13,542 nucleotides of DNA from Gemmatimonadota bacterium (GTDB taxonomy: Bacteria; 4572-55; J002). A program made the translations under genes and the position numbers. The stretch spans positions 1 to 13,542 of the forward strand of contig RFFQ01000180.1 of the NCBI GenBank assembly GCA_003697105.1, written 5' to 3'. Below the pieces are notes generated by a model, which saw nothing but the letters and a program-made list of their open reading frames with translations, was not told where the DNA came from and searched no databases. Positions 767-10,297 of the stretch are shown here, one piece after another (within the stretch, counting starts at the first letter, position 1; every line of letters begins with the position of its first letter).

Positions 767-1744
767 CTAAAGTCCGGCTCGTACTAAATCATGCAAACGG
801 ACAATTCCGACCGCTCTCCCGTGATCATCCACGACGGGTAAAACCATAATCTGGCTGGGTCGATTTTCCATCAGGCGGATCGCATCTACCGCCATGGTTT
901 GGGGGGTGACGGAAATCGGGTGGCGGGTCATGATGTCTGCCGCCGTCAAGTTGAGCAGGTGAGACCCTTGATGTTGTAATGCCCGCCGTAAATCGCCATC
1001 GGTAATAATTCCCACCAATTTTTGATCCGCTTCTACGACGTTGACTGCCCCCATCGCTTTAGAGGTCATTTCAATAATCACTTGGGGTAGGGGCACATCA
1101 CCGCCCACCCGTGGATTTTCTTCGCCGCTGTGCATCACATCTGCTACGGTTAGAAGGAGCCGTTTACCCAAACGTCCTCCCGGATGAAAGAGGGCATAGT
1201 CCTGCGGTTTGAAATCATGCAAATTGAGTAGCGTCACGGCTAAGGCATCGCCCATAACCAGCATGGCGGTTGTACTGGCGGTGGGGGCTAAATCTAGCGG
1301 GCAGGCTTCCTTTTCCACCGTGACGTTTAGCACAACATCTGCGGCTTGTGCCAACGGGGAGTCCAGATTCCCGACCATGGCAATCAATCGCGCCCCAATT
1401 TTTTTCAATACCGGTAAAATTGCCAGAATTTCATCGGACGTGCCGCTTTTACTCAGCGCAATAACGACATCATCTTTTGTCACGACACCTAAATCGCCGT
1501 GCAACCCTTCTGCCGGATGGAGAAATACCGCCAACGTACCTGTACTGCACAAGGTCGCCGTGATCTTACGGGCAATATTACCTGATTTTCCGATACCGGT
1601 GACAATCACCTTGCCTGCGCTTTGCAAGATCAAGTTAACTGCTGCCGCAAAGGAATCATTCAATTGATCTTTGACATGTTTTACGGCATCGATTTCAACG
1701 GTAAACGTTTCGTGTGCCATGCTTAAAATTGTAGAGGTATCCAT
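767..1744 (-). CDS. kdsD: D-arabinose 5-phosphate isomerase, KdsD/KpsF/GutQ family
   Basis: Interconverts ribulose 5-phosphate and arabinose 5-phosphate in the cytoplasm, the first step towards Kdo for LPS or capsule. The 325 residues show an N-terminal SIS sugar-isomerase domain (about 30-185: VTGIGKSGN, LSKSGTSDE, FHPGGRLGK) and two CBS domains (about 203-260 and 268-325). Lys53, Glu105, Glu146 and His187 fall at a constant offset from the four catalytic residues of E. coli KdsD (K59, E111, E152, H193), so activity is expected. I chose the ATG at 1744 because GGGA lies 8 nt upstream. A TTG at 1750 would overlap the preceding stop by 4 nt but sits too close to that ribosome site. The upstream triple-TIR gene ends 2 nt away, so translational coupling is likely. 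The family name is secure. Whether it is housekeeping (kdsD) or capsule-specific (kpsF) is not. Confidence 0.95.
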   Translation of the reverse strand: MDTSTILSMAHETFTVEIDAVKHVKDQLNDSFAAAVNLILQSAGKVIVTGIGKSGNIARKITATLCSTGTLAVFLHPAEGLHGDLGVVTKDDVVIALSKSGTSDEILAILPVLKKIGARLIAMVGNLDSPLAQAADVVLNVTVEKEACPLDLAPTASTTAMLVMGDALAVTLLNLHDFKPQDYALFHPGGRLGKRLLLTVADVMHSGEENPRVGGDVPLPQVIIEMTSKAMGAVNVVEADQKLVGIITDGDLRRALQHQGSHLLNLTAADIMTRHPISVTPQTMAVDAIRLMENRPSQIMVLPVVDDHGRAVGIVRLHDLVRAGL

Positions 1745-1746
1745 TT

Positions 1747-4700
1747 TCAATATCCCACTGTGTCAAGGATGTACAATATTATTGAGAGACCCGTGAACAC
1801 GGGCAATAGCAACCATAATCCAAATATCGTATAACGTTGGTGATAAAACGCAGTGACCGCTCGTTTTGCCGGAAACCAGATCAAGGCAAAGGGGATGGAG
1901 ACATAAAAGGTCATGATGCTTACCCCCAGCATGAATAACCCAGACAGGAGTTTTCCCACCCATTTGGTTTGACGGCGAAACCACTGCCACGTGGCGATCA
2001 GAACCATCAACATCACCAATATAATGCCCAAAATAAGGATTCCCAGACCCGGTTCGTAATAGGTGGTGAGGGTACTGATGGCTATTACCAATCCATCGAT
2101 AATTCCGAAAAGTAAAATCGCTAAAAATTGCCGGTTTTGATAGTAAAGGGACATCTGCCGCACCATGTTTGCGACCAGATAGACCACCGCCAGCGTGGGC
2201 AGGAGCAGTAAACTGTAGAATATCAGGTAAAAACCGGTGTCTGTGACCAAATCACCTTGATCTAACCCCCAAACGGTGATGATCGAGGCATCTAACAAAC
2301 TGAGCATGACCAGCACAAACCACCAGAACAGGCGTCGTCGCCCACTATAATACAGGTTTAACAACAATGTAAAGGCATAAAACATTGCCACTTTGATCGG
2401 TGTTACCCATAATACCGGAAGAAAGACATTTGATTGGTATTGGGGGTTGTTCATGTGTGGGGCGACATGAACTGTTAGTACCGCAAAGAGCACCAAAAAA
2501 CTCACCATATAAAAATAGCGTTGTCGCTTTTGATCATAGTAGCGAACGAGTGCCAAAAAAGAGACGACTGCCGCCAACAATGTGGCCAGTACGAGTACAA
2601 AATCAAAGAAAAAATCGGCTAATTGCCATTTCGCCAGTACCAGCCAAAATGCTACAGTACTGAGATAACCCACCGTGTACAACACGAGGGCAAAATAACG
2701 GCACTCTTGGAAATGCCGGCGAAATTGCCGTATCGTTTGGATTAGCAAAAACGAGAGCGCTAATACAAACAAGACCCATTGGACCCCGAATTTGAGCTTT
2801 TTTTCCTGCGCTAACTGGGACAATCTCTCCGAAAAAGAGCCATGTTTCTGGTAAAGCCGTTGCGCGGTGGGGTATAATGAGGGGCTATTCACTGCCGCCC
2901 ACTTCAGTGGGCTTTGCTCCACCGGATAAATGACTATCCAATGACCGGTTGCCGTGGCGAGTGTTTGCCCCTGAGGAGAAAATTTCGCCTCCTGAACATC
3001 ATCAGCATGTAAAAACAGGTCAACCCATTGCCCCTCCATTGACCATAAGCGGGCGCTGTTATCTTCTGAAGCGGTAAGAATATACTCACCGGTGGGTGAG
3101 ATATCGAGGGCAGTGAGCGGTGCATCATGGACATCTAGCGTGCGGAGTTTTTGCAACCGTACCGGAGAAATTAGCGGTTCATCCCGCTGTAAGGACTTCA
3201 TCATGATGTCTTGTAAATCCAGATCGGTACGGATTGAATCCTGCACGGACCAGATGCCTAGGTGTGTGCCGTATGTTCCCACAATTCGGTGATGATCGGT
3301 GGTTACTGCCAGTTGTTCGATGGGGGGGTCAAGTTGGGCAAGGTATTTTCCGTCCTCATTCCAGAGCGTTGCCGGCTGGTTGTAGGCTTCCTTGCTGATC
3401 ACGATCCAACGGTCTGATGGCGAAAATCTGGCAAGCGAATAGCTGGAAGAGAGCACTTGGGGCGATGTACCATCTGAATGCCAAAGTTTGATGGCGCCCC
3501 ATTGGGAGGTCACTTCCGGTATTCCGGTCGCTGCTGCGGGCTGGTGGCGGGTTAGAATGCGCCGTCCATCCGCGGAAATATCTGCCCAATCCACTGGACC
3601 GGTGTCCGTATCGCCGGAATCAATCAGGGTGATTTCCCGCCGGAATTCACCATCTAGGCTCCAAAATTGGACACTGTAAGTGCGGGTCGTCGTCAGGATT
3701 TCCTCGCGATTGGGAACAAACACCGCGGAGCTGAATTGCAAGGTATCCGGCGCGACAAGACGGCACCGCCGCTGTAAATCTGCCACCGACCACACCTCAA
3801 TCACCCCAGTGCCGGTCAAGGTGACTATATGGGACCCGTCCGGAGAATATTCAAACGATTGAACCCGGCGTTCGGTACGGATCGTTTTGAACGGTGGGGG
3901 CACACCGGTGGTTCGCGCGATGGAATCTGCCCGGGTGTAAAGTTCCTGATGCAACTGTGCGAGCTGGCGGGTTATCGGCGGCGGGACTGCCGGAAAACTA
4001 AGGGTAAATGCCCGTTCCGCCAGATAGAACCCATGTAGAAAATCGGTGGGGGATACGGCTTGGGAAGCAGACAGCAGGATGTCTTGCACCGACTGGGTGA
4101 TCTCATCACTTTCTCGTTTTTCATAAAAAATGGCGAAAAGGATCATCACTACCAGCGCCACCAGCCCCAAAATATTCAATTGTTTTAACTGTTGTTGCCG
4201 TTTTTCTCGTTTATTCCGCCGGTTTAGGCTTGCCCCAATCCATTCCTGTTGAAGTGGGGTGGGTGGGGGTTGCTTATTTTCGGCGCGGGCGGTTTCCAGC
4301 CATTCGAGGGCGACCGGTAGTTCGGAGTCTCCCAGAAGCAAATCTTCGGGACGGTGGTTGTGTTCCCATTCCTGTGCCCGTTGCGACCATTTGGTATGAT
4401 TCCGTACATGTTCGCGGTCTGTGTCCAACGTCCGGATCAATTCACTAAACGCGCGGTGGAATTCTGGCGGGTTCGTCCAGTCAATTCGCTGTACCGAACG
4501 GATTGCTTCCGGTACGTCTTCATCGGGAGTCGGGGCGATTCGCAGGGTTACAATCCGCTTATTGAATTGCTGGGCATGGGCAATCTCTGCTTTGCAATAG
4601 CGCGATTTGACCGAGTGCGGCGAGATCAAAAACAGAAAGTTATCGGCGGTTTCAATCCCACGTAGAATCTCCTGTTTGAAATCCTCTCCGGCGGCGATGC

Positions 4701-6063
4701 TTTCCAGATCAAACCAGGTGGTTTTCCCATGAATTTGCAGTTCCTCATTTAACTTTCGGGCAACGTCACTATCGGCACGGGAATACGAAATAAAAACCTC
4801 ACTGTGGAGTTGTTCACGTTTCGCATCACTCTCTAAGATAAATTGTTTGTGGAGCTTTGTTGGGGGGTAGGTGGTGCGTTGTTCTCCCAATTTTAGCCAA
4901 ATTTTGGCTTTTTCCAGATTATGGCCTCGTAACAAAATGCTGGCGTTGCCTCCCTGCCGTTGCCACTTGATTGCCTGCGCTAAAAAGACCTTATGCTGCC
5001 AGAAATACTCGCGATCGGTGTAAATTTCCTTTAGGAGTTCGTCGATGTCCCGTTCAAAATCCGCTTCTTCGCGGTTATCGGTAAAATCGATACTTTGCAG
5101 TCCCTGAATTAGCGGGGGGAGGTCTGCCGGATCGACCGCTTCAATCCGTAGGGGGATAATCCGCTTGTGATACTGCTGAACATACGCCAATTCTTTTTGA
5201 CAATATTCCGACTGGACAGATTCATGCGAGATAAAAAAGAGGAAATTATCTGCCTGAATCACCCCATCCCGGATGGCATCATCCAATTTTGACCCTTTTT
5301 GAACATCGGTATCGTGCGTCCAGGTTGTGATGAGATGGCGTGAGAGCACCCGGCGCACCTTCTCCCGAATCGCCTGATCTGTGGAGGTGTAGGAGATAAA
5401 GCAGTCTGTCATCAGGTTATCGGCATTTTTACGTGACTCGCAAATATAGTCACATTGTAAATCTGTCGGGTGGCAGGGGGGTTGTTCCTTAAATTCTGTG
5501 AGGAGCCATTTTTGGGCGGCGTGCCGTTCTGCACCTACCAGCAGGTACGCCGTAGAGCGTTGGTGGTTCTCCCATGCGATTGCCTGATTCAACAATTGGG
5601 TGTGGTGTTCCACATATTCGCGACGGTCTTCCAGTACGCTCTGCAATGTTTGGAAGTCCGCTTCAAAGGGATAAACCGGTTCCCATTGATCCGGTGGGGT
5701 ATCCGCATCATATTTTTCTTCAAACAGTAGCCAATTGAGTTTGCGGATTACCGGGTGCATTTGCTGTTCACTGGCGGTGATATGTAAAATGGGGATGATT
5801 CGCTTGCCGAGCCGGACTGCCTGATCGATCTCTTTCCGGCAATACTCCGATTCCACCGAGCGCGGGGCAATAATGAAGATAAAATTGTGTGCTTGCACAA
5901 TCCCGACATCAATTGCTTGCTGAAAGTCTTCTGCTGCGCGAATGTCATTCTGATCCAACCACACGGAATAGCCCGCCGCCGTGAGCCGGTCATGGAGGCG
6001 TATCGCAAAAAATTTGCTTTCGCGTCGCCCATAGGAGATAAAGACATCTTTGAATTCTGGCAT
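1747..6063 (-). CDS. Membrane protein with three TIR domains, a WD40-type propeller and a polytopic C-terminus
   Basis: A 1438-residue protein. Three repeated units of about 200-214 residues start at 4, 218 and 420. Each has a TIR domain (FISY at 8-11, 222-225, 424-427) and an S-x-YC-x-x-E helix whose glutamate (E78, E291, E493) aligns with the catalytic Glu of TIR NADases. Each TIR is followed by the same helical module (Asp-Arg-x-Glu, A-x-x-W, then a Leu-Leu-x-Gly or similar segment and a WL pair). A Lys/Arg-rich stretch (614-628) precedes one span (630-647). About seven WD40-like blades follow at 730-1050 (for example LTALDISPTGEYILTASEDN at 983-1002), then about 11 spans at 1094-1433. Loop charges fit N-terminus inside and propeller outside. 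AAAGGA lies 5 nt before the ATG. TIR domains commonly break down NAD or make nucleotide signals, and propellers commonly bind partners. Function here is unknown, and immune defence or envelope sensing are both possible. Confidence 0.9.
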   Translation of the reverse strand: MPEFKDVFISYGRRESKFFAIRLHDRLTAAGYSVWLDQNDIRAAEDFQQAIDVGIVQAHNFIFIIAPRSVESEYCRKEIDQAVRLGKRIIPILHITASEQQMHPVIRKLNWLLFEEKYDADTPPDQWEPVYPFEADFQTLQSVLEDRREYVEHHTQLLNQAIAWENHQRSTAYLLVGAERHAAQKWLLTEFKEQPPCHPTDLQCDYICESRKNADNLMTDCFISYTSTDQAIREKVRRVLSRHLITTWTHDTDVQKGSKLDDAIRDGVIQADNFLFFISHESVQSEYCQKELAYVQQYHKRIIPLRIEAVDPADLPPLIQGLQSIDFTDNREEADFERDIDELLKEIYTDREYFWQHKVFLAQAIKWQRQGGNASILLRGHNLEKAKIWLKLGEQRTTYPPTKLHKQFILESDAKREQLHSEVFISYSRADSDVARKLNEELQIHGKTTWFDLESIAAGEDFKQEILRGIETADNFLFLISPHSVKSRYCKAEIAHAQQFNKRIVTLRIAPTPDEDVPEAIRSVQRIDWTNPPEFHRAFSELIRTLDTDREHVRNHTKWSQRAQEWEHNHRPEDLLLGDSELPVALEWLETARAENKQPPPTPLQQEWIGASLNRRNKREKRQQQLKQLNILGLVALVVMILFAIFYEKRESDEITQSVQDILLSASQAVSPTDFLHGFYLAERAFTLSFPAVPPPITRQLAQLHQELYTRADSIARTTGVPPPFKTIRTERRVQSFEYSPDGSHIVTLTGTGVIEVWSVADLQRRCRLVAPDTLQFSSAVFVPNREEILTTTRTYSVQFWSLDGEFRREITLIDSGDTDTGPVDWADISADGRRILTRHQPAAATGIPEVTSQWGAIKLWHSDGTSPQVLSSSYSLARFSPSDRWIVISKEAYNQPATLWNEDGKYLAQLDPPIEQLAVTTDHHRIVGTYGTHLGIWSVQDSIRTDLDLQDIMMKSLQRDEPLISPVRLQKLRTLDVHDAPLTALDISPTGEYILTASEDNSARLWSMEGQWVDLFLHADDVQEAKFSPQGQTLATATGHWIVIYPVEQSPLKWAAVNSPSLYPTAQRLYQKHGSFSERLSQLAQEKKLKFGVQWVLFVLALSFLLIQTIRQFRRHFQECRYFALVLYTVGYLSTVAFWLVLAKWQLADFFFDFVLVLATLLAAVVSFLALVRYYDQKRQRYFYMVSFLVLFAVLTVHVAPHMNNPQYQSNVFLPVLWVTPIKVAMFYAFTLLLNLYYSGRRRLFWWFVLVMLSLLDASIITVWGLDQGDLVTDTGFYLIFYSLLLLPTLAVVYLVANMVRQMSLYYQNRQFLAILLFGIIDGLVIAISTLTTYYEPGLGILILGIILVMLMVLIATWQWFRRQTKWVGKLLSGLFMLGVSIMTFYVSIPFALIWFPAKRAVTAFYHQRYTIFGLWLLLPVFTGLSIILYILDTVGY

Positions 6064-6138: not shown

Positions 6139-7221
6139 TTACGTCATTCCGCACTGTTGCATCAGCTGGCGAGTGGCGCCGAACACCTCCTCGACCGGAA
6201 TCGCCGCTAGGGTATCCGCGGCAGTTTCTACCACGCGATAGGGTACGCCAAACGGATGCCATTGGGTATTTTTGGTCTGGAACAGCCCCACCGTCGGGAT
6301 GCCCAGCGCCGAGGCGAAGTGAATTGCAGAGGTATCCGGTGAGAGGAGTACATCACTGCAGTGGATGAGGGCGGCAAAATCATCAATGTGGGGGGTGGGA
6401 GGGGAAAGCTGGCATCGCTCCGAACCCACTCCGATTAAAATCTGATTCGCTTGAGCCTGATCGGAGGGGGCATGTAACAGCCATACCCCGCACTGGGGGT
6501 CATTATCTAGCAAAAGGCGACTCAACTGGATAAAGTTTTCCACTCCCCAAAATCGTGTAGGCGAACTCGCACTGATATTGACCGCAATCAGCCGTTCCAC
6601 GGCTTGCCCAAATTGTTGCCGCTGACGGGTCGCCCATTGTTGCCGTTGTTCCGAAAGGGGGTAATATGGGCGTAATGTCGTCATGTCAAATGAATCATCC
6701 AGCGCTAACATCAATTGACCCAGTACCTGAATCATATGACCTTCTTGCGGAGTGATTTGTTGGGGAACCACAATATTTGCCGCGTAATCCGTTTTTTTAG
6801 CGAGGCTGATCCGGTACGGTGCGCGGAGGAGTTGCATCAGTATTGCCACCGTGGTGGATCGATCATGCCCTAAATCGATAATCACATCATAGCGCTGGCG
6901 GCGCAACGTGACGATCAGTTGCCATATCCGAAACGGATTTTTGCGATAGACAAAAATCTGCCGCAAATGCGTATCTGCCGAAAGTAATTGCGCGTTTTTC
7001 TCCCCCAATAGCATATCCAGCGTAAAATGGGGATAGTGTGACCAAATTGCCCGAATGACCGGTGTGGAAACCAGCAAATCTCCAATCCGTGCGGGACGAA
7101 GGAGTAATAGGGTGTATGGTTTTTCCGGGTGGGGTAGGGTTTTGAACGGCGTTTGTGATGGCAACAGCCATTTGATGAGCTTTGCTAACCCTCGCCGAGA
7201 GATGATCTCAAGTGTTTTCAT
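6139..7221 (-). CDS. Glycosyltransferase family 9, ADP-heptose:LPS heptosyltransferase-like
   Basis: GT9 enzymes transfer heptose (or a related sugar) from ADP-heptose onto the LPS core at the inner face of the cytoplasmic membrane. From the ATG at 7221 the protein has 360 residues, normal for the family. The N-terminal Rossmann half opens with LLLLRPARIGDLLVSTP (about 38-54), where Asp48 matches the catalytic aspartate position. The C-terminal donor-binding half has ISASSPTRFWGVENF (216-230) and SPDTSAIHFASALGIPTVG (294-312), the family's DTxxxHxAxAxxxP signature. A TTG at 7251 would add 10 residues, but the GGAGAG site lies only 2 nt from it, so the ATG is preferred with modest confidence. 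The preceding capA-like stop is 37 nt away. Which core sugar it transfers cannot be told. Confidence 0.9.
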   Translation of the reverse strand: MKTLEIISRRGLAKLIKWLLPSQTPFKTLPHPEKPYTLLLLRPARIGDLLVSTPVIRAIWSHYPHFTLDMLLGEKNAQLLSADTHLRQIFVYRKNPFRIWQLIVTLRRQRYDVIIDLGHDRSTTVAILMQLLRAPYRISLAKKTDYAANIVVPQQITPQEGHMIQVLGQLMLALDDSFDMTTLRPYYPLSEQRQQWATRQRQQFGQAVERLIAVNISASSPTRFWGVENFIQLSRLLLDNDPQCGVWLLHAPSDQAQANQILIGVGSERCQLSPPTPHIDDFAALIHCSDVLLSPDTSAIHFASALGIPTVGLFQTKNTQWHPFGVPYRVVETAADTLAAIPVEEVFGATRQLMQQCGMT

Positions 7222-7244
7222 CTGTTCCGTTGGGATAAGGTCAT
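7218..7244 (-). other. Possible 8-codon leader ORF coupled to the glycosyltransferase
   Basis: A short frame MTLSQRNR starts at an ATG with GGAGAG 7 nt upstream, the best ribosome site in this gap. Its TGA overlaps the glycosyltransferase ATG as ATGA. This arrangement could deliver ribosomes to the glycosyltransferase start by reinitiation. It may be a chance frame; there is no evidence that the peptide itself matters. Confidence 0.25.
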
Positions 7245-7258
7245 TTTTCAACTCTCCA

Positions 7259-10246
7259 TTATTTCAACAACACACTGTGGATGGTGTGGGTGGTATTCCG
7301 CCATGAGAGCCGGATCAAATAAACCCCCGAGGGGTGCGCTCTGGCATTCCATTGAACCTGATAAGTGCCTTTTTCTTGCCATTCATCCACTAGAATCGTT
7401 ACCAATTTCCCGGCGATATTATACACCTTTAAGATGACCTGACCGGCTTCCGGGAGGTCATAGCGGAGTGTCGTTACGGGATTAAATGGATTGGGGTAGT
7501 TTTGGTGCAAACGGACGTTTTGCGGCACGGCGGGGCGGTGATCGGGTTTTCCGGCAGAGATGATTGGGTCTTCTGGGGCGTAGATGGTTTCGATATAGCG
7601 CACTATCAGGGAATCCGGCTCGACAGGGGTCTCCAGTTGCAGGTAATACCTGTCATTGGGGTTGGGGATATCCACCGGTAGTTGGGTGACGGTCTGCCAT
7701 TCGCTCCACTCAATCACACTGATGTCATCAAACCAGGTGATTCCGGTTCCTGTTGCGGGTCCTTCGCTGTTGAGCCGTACATTTAGGTAGATCGTCTCCG
7801 GTGGAATCTCCATTTCATGCCAGAGGTACGTCCAATCGGCATCACCTTGGATGGCGGTTCCGATATTTTCTGTTCCTAGATTTTCACCCAGCGTGCGCCA
7901 CCGGTAATAGCGGGTGTGGATGGTGGCATTGGCGGCATTTTCGGTTTTAATCCAGCCTTGAACGGTGTGAGGTTTGGTGGCGTCGATGGGTAACCGTTTT
8001 TCCAAATGGGTGTTTAGCCGGACCCAACCTGCGGGACGCTCCTGTTTCAGGGAGCGCTGACCACGGTGAGCGATGGTTTCATCAATGGATTCGTCCGCGT
8101 GATCCAATTCCCACAAAGTAGAACCTTCCGCTTCAAAATTACCCATCCAGAGTACCTCTCGCCCGATTCGATACCGCCATGGGTGCGGTTGGGGGCGAAT
8201 CTCATAGAGCTGGCTGAGGAACCCTTCACGTTCCAACCGGATGGGTACGGTTTGCCAGCGGAGCGAGTCCGCCGGTTGGAGCGCGAGCTGTATGGTGAAC
8301 ATCTCGCTGTGGGTTTCCTGTGTGGCGGGGTCTAAAACGACATATCCGCGCCCTGCTTCGCGATCCACGTGGAGGATCGTCCCCAGATCGCGGGACAACT
8401 GTGCCAGATGATCCAGTATGAACAGCCCTAATTCACCGGTTGCCGGAGTTGGGATGTAATCATCAATGTAAATGGGGGTGATGCTCCACCGGTAAAAGCC
8501 GCGTTGGTCATACTCCGCGTTGAGGATGATCGAAGGAAAGGTCTCTGGGAAATTTTGATCAAAAGCAAAATTGCCTAAGGAGTGGGCAATGACCTTTCCC
8601 TGATAGACCTCAATTCCCTGCAAGACATGGGGATGGTGGCAGATCACCGCGTCTGCACCGGCATCGATTGCCATTTGCCGCAAGGTTCGGTCTGCCGGTT
8701 GGGGGGTGCGAAGGTTCGCGGCATCTCGTGACCCTTGTATCCGATATGCTTCCCCCCGGATGATACTTTCACCTGCCATTTCGGGATGTTCAGCGTACTC
8801 ATATCCGGCGTGAAGTTCTAAGATGATGGCATCGGCATCCGTCCGGACGGCGTCGATCATCCGCAGAACGTCATAGACGGTCTCTTCAGCAAACCCCGGC
8901 TTGTTAAAACCGGCATTCAAAAAGGGTTGGAGGTTATCGTATTGCCCGGTACGGTCACAAAAGGCTAAAAAGGCAAAATTGACTCCTTTTTCGGAATAAA
9001 ACAGCGGTTGGTATGCCTGATAGGCATTATCTCCCCCACCTGAATGGGCAATTCCGGCACTATCCAGCAATGCCTGTGTGTGCCGTTGTCCCTCGACCCC
9101 AAAATCGATGGCATGATTATTCGCCAAAGAGACGACATCAATACCGGCGTAAGAGAGGGCGGTTACATTTGCTGGAGAACCCCGGAATACATACGATTTA
9201 GAAGGGTGTGGTGTGCCGCGGTCGGTGAGGGGGCATTCCAGATTCGCCACAGTCACATCGGCGGCACGTCCTAGTACGTCCCGGGTGGGTTCAAAAATCA
9301 CTTCTGCTCCGTATGTGGGGATGATACCGCCTTCTTCTTCGTAACGGCGCGCCAGCATAATATCCCCAACAAAATTGAAGGTGACCGGAAAGCTTGTTTC
9401 GCCTGTATCCACACTGATTTGGGTGGTTGCCCAACCGGATTTGCGGGTGGTATCGGTGACGGTCAAGCGGACGGTGTAGGGGTGATCATCTTCCACAATA
9501 AAGGTGTGTACCGGGTTGGTTTCGTAGCTGGTGGTACTGTCGCCAAAATCCCAATGGTAGATGTGGATGTCACTATCCGGATCGACGACCTCTGCTCCAA
9601 ACGCGACTGTCACGGCGCGCAAGCCGGCTGGTGTCCGGAACGGGCGTCCGATGTCCGTCAAAATGGTCACCTGCGGAGCAACCGGCAGATCGTCTGTGAT
9701 GTCTAAAATCTCATCGATAAAGAAAAACCGGACACCGGTCGTATCCCGGTCATTAAAAAACGCCAGATGATCAATCTGCGGGAGATAGCCAAAATTTGCC
9801 AACCAGTCTGCTCCGACCGGTAGTTGGTAAATTTGCCAGTCCCCGACCGGAAACGCCCCCTGATAGACGGTTGTCCAGATGTCATTATCGAGCGCTTCGC
9901 TACCGCTAAAAGCGTACCGCAGTTCATGGAGCGAATCCAGCAGAGCAATCCCTTGAATCTCTGCCGCCTCGCTGAGGACTTTTGCCGCCACTTGCCAGAC
10001 GGTGGCGGTATCCAGTGGGGTGGGTTCAATGGTTTCCAATTTCCACGTATTCCCAAAAATCAGCAGGGCAAACGCGGATTCATCATACGTGTCGGTGGCA
10101 GTGATTTGCCACGCCGCCGGATTCTGATCTTCCTCAGGATACGAGAAGAGAATCACCTCGCCGTCGTTAAAATCTTCAATGATTTCAGCGGCAAAACTGG
10201 GCAGGATCAGCAAACAACTGAATCCGACTGCCAAAATAGCATTCAT
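7259..10246 (-). CDS. Secreted CapA-family metallophosphatase-like protein with T9SS sorting domain
   Basis: A 995-residue exported protein. A signal peptide (MNAILAVGFSCLLILPSFAA) is followed by a jelly-roll, carbohydrate-binding-like region (about 22-185) and a PKD domain (about 193-281, with YHWDFGDS). Next comes a CapA/PgsA-type capsule-synthesis domain (about 287-580: FVGDIMLAR, NLECPLT, LANNHAIDFG, LHAGYEY, HHPHVLQG, HSLGNFAFD). A second binding-like jelly roll (about 699-848) and a C-terminal T9SS type A sorting domain with QNYPNPFNP (915-923) and SGVYLIRL complete the chain. CapA proteins have a calcineurin-like fold and are linked to poly-gamma-glutamate or capsule, and some act as phosphatases; the substrate here is unknown. 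The ATG at 10246 has GGGAG 8 nt upstream and gives a clean signal peptide. An ATG at 10297 directly abuts the promoter -10 box and lacks a ribosome site. It is the first gene of the four-gene operon. Confidence 0.88.
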   Translation of the reverse strand: MNAILAVGFSCLLILPSFAAEIIEDFNDGEVILFSYPEEDQNPAAWQITATDTYDESAFALLIFGNTWKLETIEPTPLDTATVWQVAAKVLSEAAEIQGIALLDSLHELRYAFSGSEALDNDIWTTVYQGAFPVGDWQIYQLPVGADWLANFGYLPQIDHLAFFNDRDTTGVRFFFIDEILDITDDLPVAPQVTILTDIGRPFRTPAGLRAVTVAFGAEVVDPDSDIHIYHWDFGDSTTSYETNPVHTFIVEDDHPYTVRLTVTDTTRKSGWATTQISVDTGETSFPVTFNFVGDIMLARRYEEEGGIIPTYGAEVIFEPTRDVLGRAADVTVANLECPLTDRGTPHPSKSYVFRGSPANVTALSYAGIDVVSLANNHAIDFGVEGQRHTQALLDSAGIAHSGGGDNAYQAYQPLFYSEKGVNFAFLAFCDRTGQYDNLQPFLNAGFNKPGFAEETVYDVLRMIDAVRTDADAIILELHAGYEYAEHPEMAGESIIRGEAYRIQGSRDAANLRTPQPADRTLRQMAIDAGADAVICHHPHVLQGIEVYQGKVIAHSLGNFAFDQNFPETFPSIILNAEYDQRGFYRWSITPIYIDDYIPTPATGELGLFILDHLAQLSRDLGTILHVDREAGRGYVVLDPATQETHSEMFTIQLALQPADSLRWQTVPIRLEREGFLSQLYEIRPQPHPWRYRIGREVLWMGNFEAEGSTLWELDHADESIDETIAHRGQRSLKQERPAGWVRLNTHLEKRLPIDATKPHTVQGWIKTENAANATIHTRYYRWRTLGENLGTENIGTAIQGDADWTYLWHEMEIPPETIYLNVRLNSEGPATGTGITWFDDISVIEWSEWQTVTQLPVDIPNPNDRYYLQLETPVEPDSLIVRYIETIYAPEDPIISAGKPDHRPAVPQNVRLHQNYPNPFNPVTTLRYDLPEAGQVILKVYNIAGKLVTILVDEWQEKGTYQVQWNARAHPSGVYLIRLSWRNTTHTIHSVLLK

Positions 10247-10297
10247 GAGTATCGCTCCCGCGCTGAGGGTTGTTTCCCAAGGACGTGTTTGAAGCAT

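Follow-up and report, generated by a model that had tools for sequence, protein, structure and literature searches.

Three ordered classes of TIR domain in a predicted bacterial transmembrane receptor and its relatives

The contig RFFQ01000180.1 of a Gemmatimonadota bacterium (assembly GCA_003697105.1) was analysed over its whole length of 13,542 nucleotides, referred to here as the window, and contains a gene whose product joins three TIR domains, a WD40-type propeller and a large membrane domain in one chain. TIR enzymes are thought to need assembly, since the active site lies between two TIRs, and the question raised by this locus is what becomes of that need when three TIRs are fused. The original prediction, made from the window's sequence, was of a membrane sensor-effector in which TIRs pre-assembled in cis perhaps replace oligomerisation. 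A sensor-effector with TIRs joined in cis is supported by the present analysis; however, as the middle unit has lost two residues of the NADase site, the idea is recast as one of an enzymatic TIR linked in one chain to a pseudo-TIR. A linear trimer also keeps open ends, such that oligomerisation would probably be eased rather than replaced. In our judgement there is a somewhat better than even chance that the protein is a transmembrane receptor whose TIR strand is pre-assembled by covalent linkage, unit I being the enzyme and unit II its pseudo-enzyme partner. Fused TIR partners in a fixed order, one of them a pseudo-enzyme, would make the division of labour in a TIR strand testable with one gene and point changes.

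The gene, on the minus strand between 6063 and 1747, is an open reading frame (ORF) without an internal stop. Its features, with transmembrane abbreviated as TM, are as follows.

1747..6063, minus strand: whole gene, 1,438 amino acids; TIR I, TIR II, TIR III, TM helix, seven-bladed propeller, 11 TM helices
5407..6048, minus strand: unit I, TIR and helical linker, residues 6-219; NADase residues R13, D37, Y74 and E78 present
5830..5832, minus strand: codon of the catalytic-type Glu78, at the position of SARM1 E642 and AbTir E208
4801..5406, minus strand: unit II, TIR and linker, residues 220-421; Glu291 kept, beta-A Arg replaced by Ser227 and beta-B Asp by His250; predicted pseudo-enzyme
5191..5193, minus strand: codon of Glu291
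4180..4800, minus strand: unit III, TIR and linker, residues 422-628; NADase residues present, with Glu493
4585..4587, minus strand: codon of Glu493
4123..4179, minus strand: first TM helix, residues 629-647; rich in Lys and Arg on the TIR side, the TIRs being predicted cytoplasmic
2884..3906, minus strand: WD40-type propeller, residues ~720-1060; predicted extracytoplasmic
1765..2796, minus strand: polytopic membrane domain, residues 1090-1433; 11 TM helices predicted, no relatives detected

Three tandem TIR units had been expected, and the Pfam family TIR_2 (PF13676) matches the protein in three stretches (whole-protein E 6.4e-76), with bounds within a few residues of those first drawn; the three glutamates singled out as catalytic-type lie at exactly the positions named. 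Each repeat includes a helical linker of ~70 residues. The AlphaFold2 model of unit III (predicted local distance difference test, pLDDT, 88.7) is a TIR fold with a three-helix tail and, compared with solved TIRs, is closest to that of SPARTA (Z 19.3), followed by SARM1 (Z 18.3) and AbTir (Z 16.0). This comparison was dominated by TIR matches and barely probed the three-helix linker. The TIR identity of units I and II was established by sequence only, that of unit III also by predicted structure, and the protein thus belongs to the TIR superfamily by sequence profile and by the fold of unit III.

The three units had been treated as equivalent; they are instead three old, position-specific classes, the middle one lacking two residues of the NADase site. 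The main tree comprised 76 units, taken from 23 multi-TIR proteins and from three relatives with a single TIR; in it the first, second and third units form separate clades, I, II and III (Shimodaira-Hasegawa-like approximate likelihood-ratio test, SH-aLRT, 99, 100 and 94 respectively), and a smaller, careful tree gives the same three positional classes. Trees forcing together the three units of one protein were rejected for the window protein (A), its paralogue B and the related proteins of Kovacikia and Bernardetia (approximately unbiased test, p-AU <=2.2e-5). Given the positional clades and the rejection of tandem-origin trees, the triple is an old module inherited whole, and the classes I-II-III are older than both the paralogues and the phyla. 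Both five-TIR proteins, paralogue C and the cyanobacterial L111, have the order I-II-I-II-III. Units 3-5 of C resemble B and the units of L111 group with cyanobacterial units; the same order thus seems to have been reached twice by insertion of an I-II pair. The inner units 3 and 4 of C are degraded.

It could be argued that the triplet is a recent tandem duplication or an assembly artefact without functional meaning, and an assembly error or recent fusion had been named at the outset as what might undo the prediction. This is scarcely credible, as nothing beyond the repeat itself speaks for it: the units of the window protein share only 30-35% pairwise identity and cluster by position across phyla, trees with a tandem origin are rejected, and GC content at synonymous third positions (GC3) is uniform along the gene, the 11-TM part included, and similar to that of neighbouring genes. 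Given the even GC3 and the existence of two paralogues, neither a chimera nor an assembly error is indicated.

The classes also differ in the residues of the NADase site, mapped by alignment to R570, D594, W638 and E642 of SARM1. Class I keeps Arg, Asp and Glu together in 24 of 25 units, the exception being unit 3 of C. Class II keeps Glu in 24/25 units, with Arg in 1/25 and Asp in 2/25, the replacements being mostly Glu/Asp and Asn. Class III keeps Arg in 18/23, Asp in 22/23 and Glu in 19/23 units, its degraded members lying mostly in proteins with a CHASE2 domain, and in one cyanobacterial protein (L080) class I is intact with classes II and III degraded. As a control, the single-TIR relatives keep all three residues in 15/15. 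In the window protein the set of Glu, beta-A Arg and beta-B Asp is carried by units I (R13/D37/E78) and III, but not by unit II (Ser227, His250). From the alignment ranges of the structure comparison, the Asp lost in class II aligns with D167 of AbTir, a residue whose replacement by Ala eliminates NADase activity; the corresponding change in TcpC, D203A, has the same effect (PMC11374754). Since TIR NADase sites are formed between two head-to-tail TIRs (PMC11364022), a class II partner need not own a full site. The loss of Arg and Asp with Glu kept is read most simply as that of a pseudo-enzyme, which may complete the active site of class I, the class that would cleave nicotinamide adenine dinucleotide (NAD). 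The Trp position of the WxxxE motif is Tyr in the class I units of multi-TIR proteins and mostly Val in single-TIR relatives; as the production of cyclic ADP-ribose by AbTir has been associated with this Trp (PMC11374754), the products of the two groups may differ.

The same losses could be taken to mean that the tandem TIRs are a non-enzymatic scaffold, acting in the manner of MyD88/MAL as adaptors that recruit TIR proteins without cleaving NAD, the sequences of the classes reflecting different partners. Class II does lack key NADase residues, class III is degraded in several proteins, and the genome encodes a separate small TIR protein (L062:4593-5387 on contig C160, 264 residues, the only other TIR of the genome by PF13676). 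However, there would be little reason for a mere scaffold to retain the enzymatic set in one unit only, and class I does retain it in all but one case over three lineages, making this explanation unlikely though not negligible.

The prediction of about 12 membrane spans agrees with the hydrophobic spans found, one at 629-647 and eleven between 1090 and 1433. Lys and Arg are in excess on the TIR side of the TM helix in 24/24 proteins checked (23 multi-TIR, one single), and the predicted loops of the 11-TM domain hold 17 Lys/Arg on the inner against 4 on the outer side. In five relatives (L064, L101, L102, L109 and L111) the propeller is replaced by CHASE2, described as a small-molecule receptor domain outside the cell (PMC8195603). 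Given the charge bias and the CHASE2 fusions, the TIRs are predicted to be cytoplasmic and the sensor extracytoplasmic. Of the propeller, predicted with about seven blades, seven d-strand motifs are seen (starting at ~755, 798, 858, 898, 935, 1004 and 1043), but the count relies on motif spacing, because a single blade (971-1008, PF00400 E 5.5e-12) is a strong WD40 match. The AlphaFold2 model of residues 700-1438, from a single sequence, has a pLDDT of 41.8, and the description of the propeller and membrane part is drawn from sequence alone. Across the family, the sensor that the TM helix connects to the TIR output is exchangeable, being a WD40 propeller, CHASE2, a coiled coil or, in the window protein, a propeller with the 11-TM domain. 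A search for homologues with the same domain order, suggested with the original prediction, recovered the TIR order I-II-III in relatives, but the 11-TM domain in the window protein only; matches to that domain in 386 genomes, plasmids and Pfam were at chance level. The polytopic domain, which had been thought part of the design, is thus peculiar to the window protein and lies outside the core architecture.

Neither is the protein a lone oddity, since 24 multi-TIR proteins were found: three in its own genome, one in Bernardetia and 20 in Cyanobacteria including Kovacikia. Within the 4.18-Mb genome, paralogue B (L009:222-3638, 1,138 residues) has three TIRs, a TM helix, a coiled coil and WD40, and paralogue C (L010:2010-8081, contig C57, 2,023 residues) five TIRs, a TM helix, a coiled coil and 14 strong WD40 repeats. 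Searches of plasmids by tblastn gave two proteins. That of Bernardetia, on a Bacteroidota plasmid, combines three TIRs with a TM helix and a coiled coil, its TIR part showing 52% identity; that of Kovacikia, on a cyanobacterial plasmid, combines three TIRs with CHASE2. Among 386 broadly sampled genomes one further genome, a cyanobacterium, held a multi-TIR protein, and when 386 cyanobacterial genomes were searched with the class II profile, 11 had such proteins (10 as strong matches, the eleventh being L080). The five-TIR CHASE2 protein of Cyanobacteria lies at L111:5434-9963. With the full-length protein as query, genome contigs yielded a single, weak TIR locus; profile searches of whole genomes succeeded. 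The class II unit was absent from 245 and 82 genomes of two other phyla rich in the type IX secretion system (T9SS), G059 stood alone in its phylum, and no relatives were found in phage records and viral contigs at the settings used. The multi-TIR architecture is therefore that of a family across Gemmatimonadota, a Bacteroidota plasmid and Cyanobacteria. The parts themselves (TIR, WD40, CHASE2, SLATT, SLOG) are of known kinds, yet no description of an ordered three-class TIR module with exchangeable sensors was found in the open-access literature searched, such that the family, although widespread, is apparently undescribed, as had been proposed of the window protein.

The biological role of the family may be approached through its gene neighbours. 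Cyanobacterial members of the WD40 type lie in clusters that are mostly same-strand with short gaps, beside genes for DUF4231/SLATT proteins with two TM helices (2TM; L057, L103, L104, L105 and L107), TRPM-type SLOG (LSDAT_prok) proteins (L057, L104, L106 and L107) and, in one case (L106), a patatin like the phospholipase effectors of cyclic-oligonucleotide-based antiphage signalling systems (CBASS). Of the DUF4231/SLATT genes in ten genomes, 7/18 lie within 6 kb of a triple-TIR gene, against 0.1 expected (P 3e-12, or 3e-8 when tandem copies are merged). SLATT is a predicted nucleotide-responsive membrane effector known beside TIR genes (PMC9503650, PMC7159879). Given that these neighbours are SLATT, SLOG and patatin, conflict signalling is suggested for these cyanobacterial relatives, and phage defence is plausible from the same neighbours. 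The clusters at L057 and L103-L107 also include TPR-S among the neighbour genes, and at L103 the TIR-SLATT pair occurs twice in tandem. Near the CHASE2-type members (L064, L101, L102, L109 and L111) a DUF928 gene is found in 5/5 cases and CHAT-TPR proteins in 2.

Another possibility is that the window protein is a self-contained killer, the 11-TM domain being a pore or transporter gated in cis by TIR products or rearrangement and substituting for the cyanobacterial SLATT. It is in keeping with this that the domain is found only in the window protein, whose genome has no DUF4231/SLATT gene. However, the domain has neither detectable relatives nor a usable predicted structure and is missing from paralogues B and C, and such a role is quite improbable.

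The window itself presents a different setting, of which two genes flank the TIR gene.

767..1744, minus strand: KdsD/KpsF-type sugar-phosphate isomerase, next gene, with 2 bases between the TIR gene stop and its ATG; context only
6139..7251, minus strand: GT9 heptosyltransferase-like, preceding gene, 75 bases upstream; context only

A CapA-like (PGA_cap) protein of 1,012 residues, containing a PKD domain and carrying a T9SS sorting tail, is encoded further upstream (7259-10297, minus strand). This position between heptosyltransferase and KdsD genes, both of a lipopolysaccharide (LPS) context and one separated by a 2-base gap, could indicate a sensor outside defence that monitors the outer envelope or, in the CHASE2 versions, a small molecule, and whose NAD-derived messenger would serve ordinary regulation or programmed death. 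The CHASE2 fusions and the failure to find phage or viral relatives agree with such a role. It is nonetheless unlikely for two reasons: first, the LPS context is absent from the paralogues, whose settings differ (a pseudouridine synthase-like gene and a TonB receptor), and from other family members; second, the genes that neighbour the relatives (SLATT, SLOG and patatin) suggest conflict systems. LPS genes also adjoin another TIR membrane protein, with a single TIR and TM helix (L058:1671-2534), in this case lpxA-like and lpxC-fabZ fusion-like ones, perhaps by chance.

The receptor with a pre-assembled strand is thus preferred, and a course of events can be proposed that starts from the computed domain order, classes, residue losses, sensor interchange and neighbour association; its composite site, ligand, product and biological role we infer. 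The three TIRs would be cytoplasmic, with the propeller on the far side of the inner membrane and, in the window protein, the 11-TM domain after it; within one chain the TIRs, each specialised, would form a strand fixed head to tail. The NAD-cleaving unit would be class I, and class II a pseudo-TIR, with fold and BB-loop region kept, that completes the class I site at a shared interface; class III, nearest the membrane, may connect to the sensor and serve as a second enzyme unit that is more readily dispensed with. The strand, or the strands of neighbouring receptors, could be aligned by an extracytoplasmic ligand or by damage to the envelope, upon which NAD would be cleaved or a signal of the ADP-ribose type produced. 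The likely receivers in cyanobacterial relatives would be the co-encoded SLOG, SLATT or patatin proteins; in the Gemmatimonadota bacterium the signal may go to some other receiver, or NAD loss may itself be the output.

Several observations weigh against this proposal. Class I has Tyr rather than Trp at the Trp position of WxxxE; class III is degraded in CHASE2 relatives, so that a universal two-site model fails; and one class II unit of the five-TIR protein C retains Arg and Asp. In addition, the window neighbours are LPS and housekeeping genes, and the conflict-signalling context is not extended to the window protein, while the DUF4231/SLATT search that found the family in 9/10 other genomes gave none in the window's own.

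Comparison with known systems places the window protein near several of them and within none. TM-WD40 proteins with a single TIR, found in Cyanobacteria and elsewhere (e.g. L059, L013 and L065), share the TIR with helical linker, the TM helix and the WD40 propeller; these, however, have one TIR with Arg, Asp and Glu all kept, no aromatic residue at the WxxxE Trp position and no polytopic domain. SARM1 and AbTir/TcpC share the TIR fold and the catalytic residues of units I and III, and their site lies between two TIRs (PMC11364022), but they have one TIR per chain (proximity in SARM1 being achieved by ring formation), no pseudo-TIR and no extracytoplasmic sensor. SPARTA, a TIR-APAZ protein with a short Argonaute, holds the closest solved TIR by fold and forms head-to-tail TIR pairs; the sensor of the window protein is instead membrane-bound, and no APAZ or Argonaute match was found in it or its neighbours. 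Thoeris, where ThsB/ThcB TIRs act with ThsA or other receivers, is similar in that a TIR may signal through an ADP-ribose product to a partner containing SLOG or membrane parts, but a multi-TIR TM receptor is foreign to that system. The score of 103.7 bits with the ThcB4 equivalog NF058526 (NCBIfam), against a curated cut-off of 220, excludes Thoeris type III, and no ThsA-type receiver gene, as would be required for Thoeris of any type, was present among the other window ORFs scanned with Pfam. STAND/NLR-type TIR proteins are set apart by the lack of an NTPase (AP-ATPase/NACHT) match and by the TM helix directly after the TIR units. TIR/SLATT conflict operons (PMC9503650, PMC7159879) resemble the cyanobacterial members, in which the TIR gene stands beside a 2TM SLATT gene; the TIR gene there is not described as a multi-TIR receptor, whereas the triple-TIR family also occurs with TRPM-type SLOG and the window's genome has no SLATT.

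The window protein has the features of the proposed triple-TIR transmembrane receptor family, in that the order I-II-III is followed by a TM helix and the TIRs are predicted to be cytoplasmic, as judged by charge only. Its predicted plan of extracytoplasmic sensor, TM helix and cytoplasmic TIRs is that of Toll-like receptors, of which the mollusc Tolls include forms with tandem TIRs (PMC4929906). It is not a member of that group, given its propeller in place of leucine-rich repeats (LRR), its 12 spans in place of a single TM helix and its N-terminal TIRs, and it differs further in being bacterial and in having three ordered classes with a predicted pseudo-enzyme. Tentatively, and at rather less than an even chance, the relatives as a whole may form a Toll-receptor-like bacterial family, in which a single-chain strand of alternating catalytic and pseudo-catalytic TIRs (I-II repeated, III last) and exchangeable extracytoplasmic sensors pass an NAD-derived messenger to SLOG, SLATT or patatin proteins. 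If so, these would be bacterial transmembrane receptors that couple sensing outside the cell to TIR signalling, a layout otherwise associated with the Toll receptors of animals.

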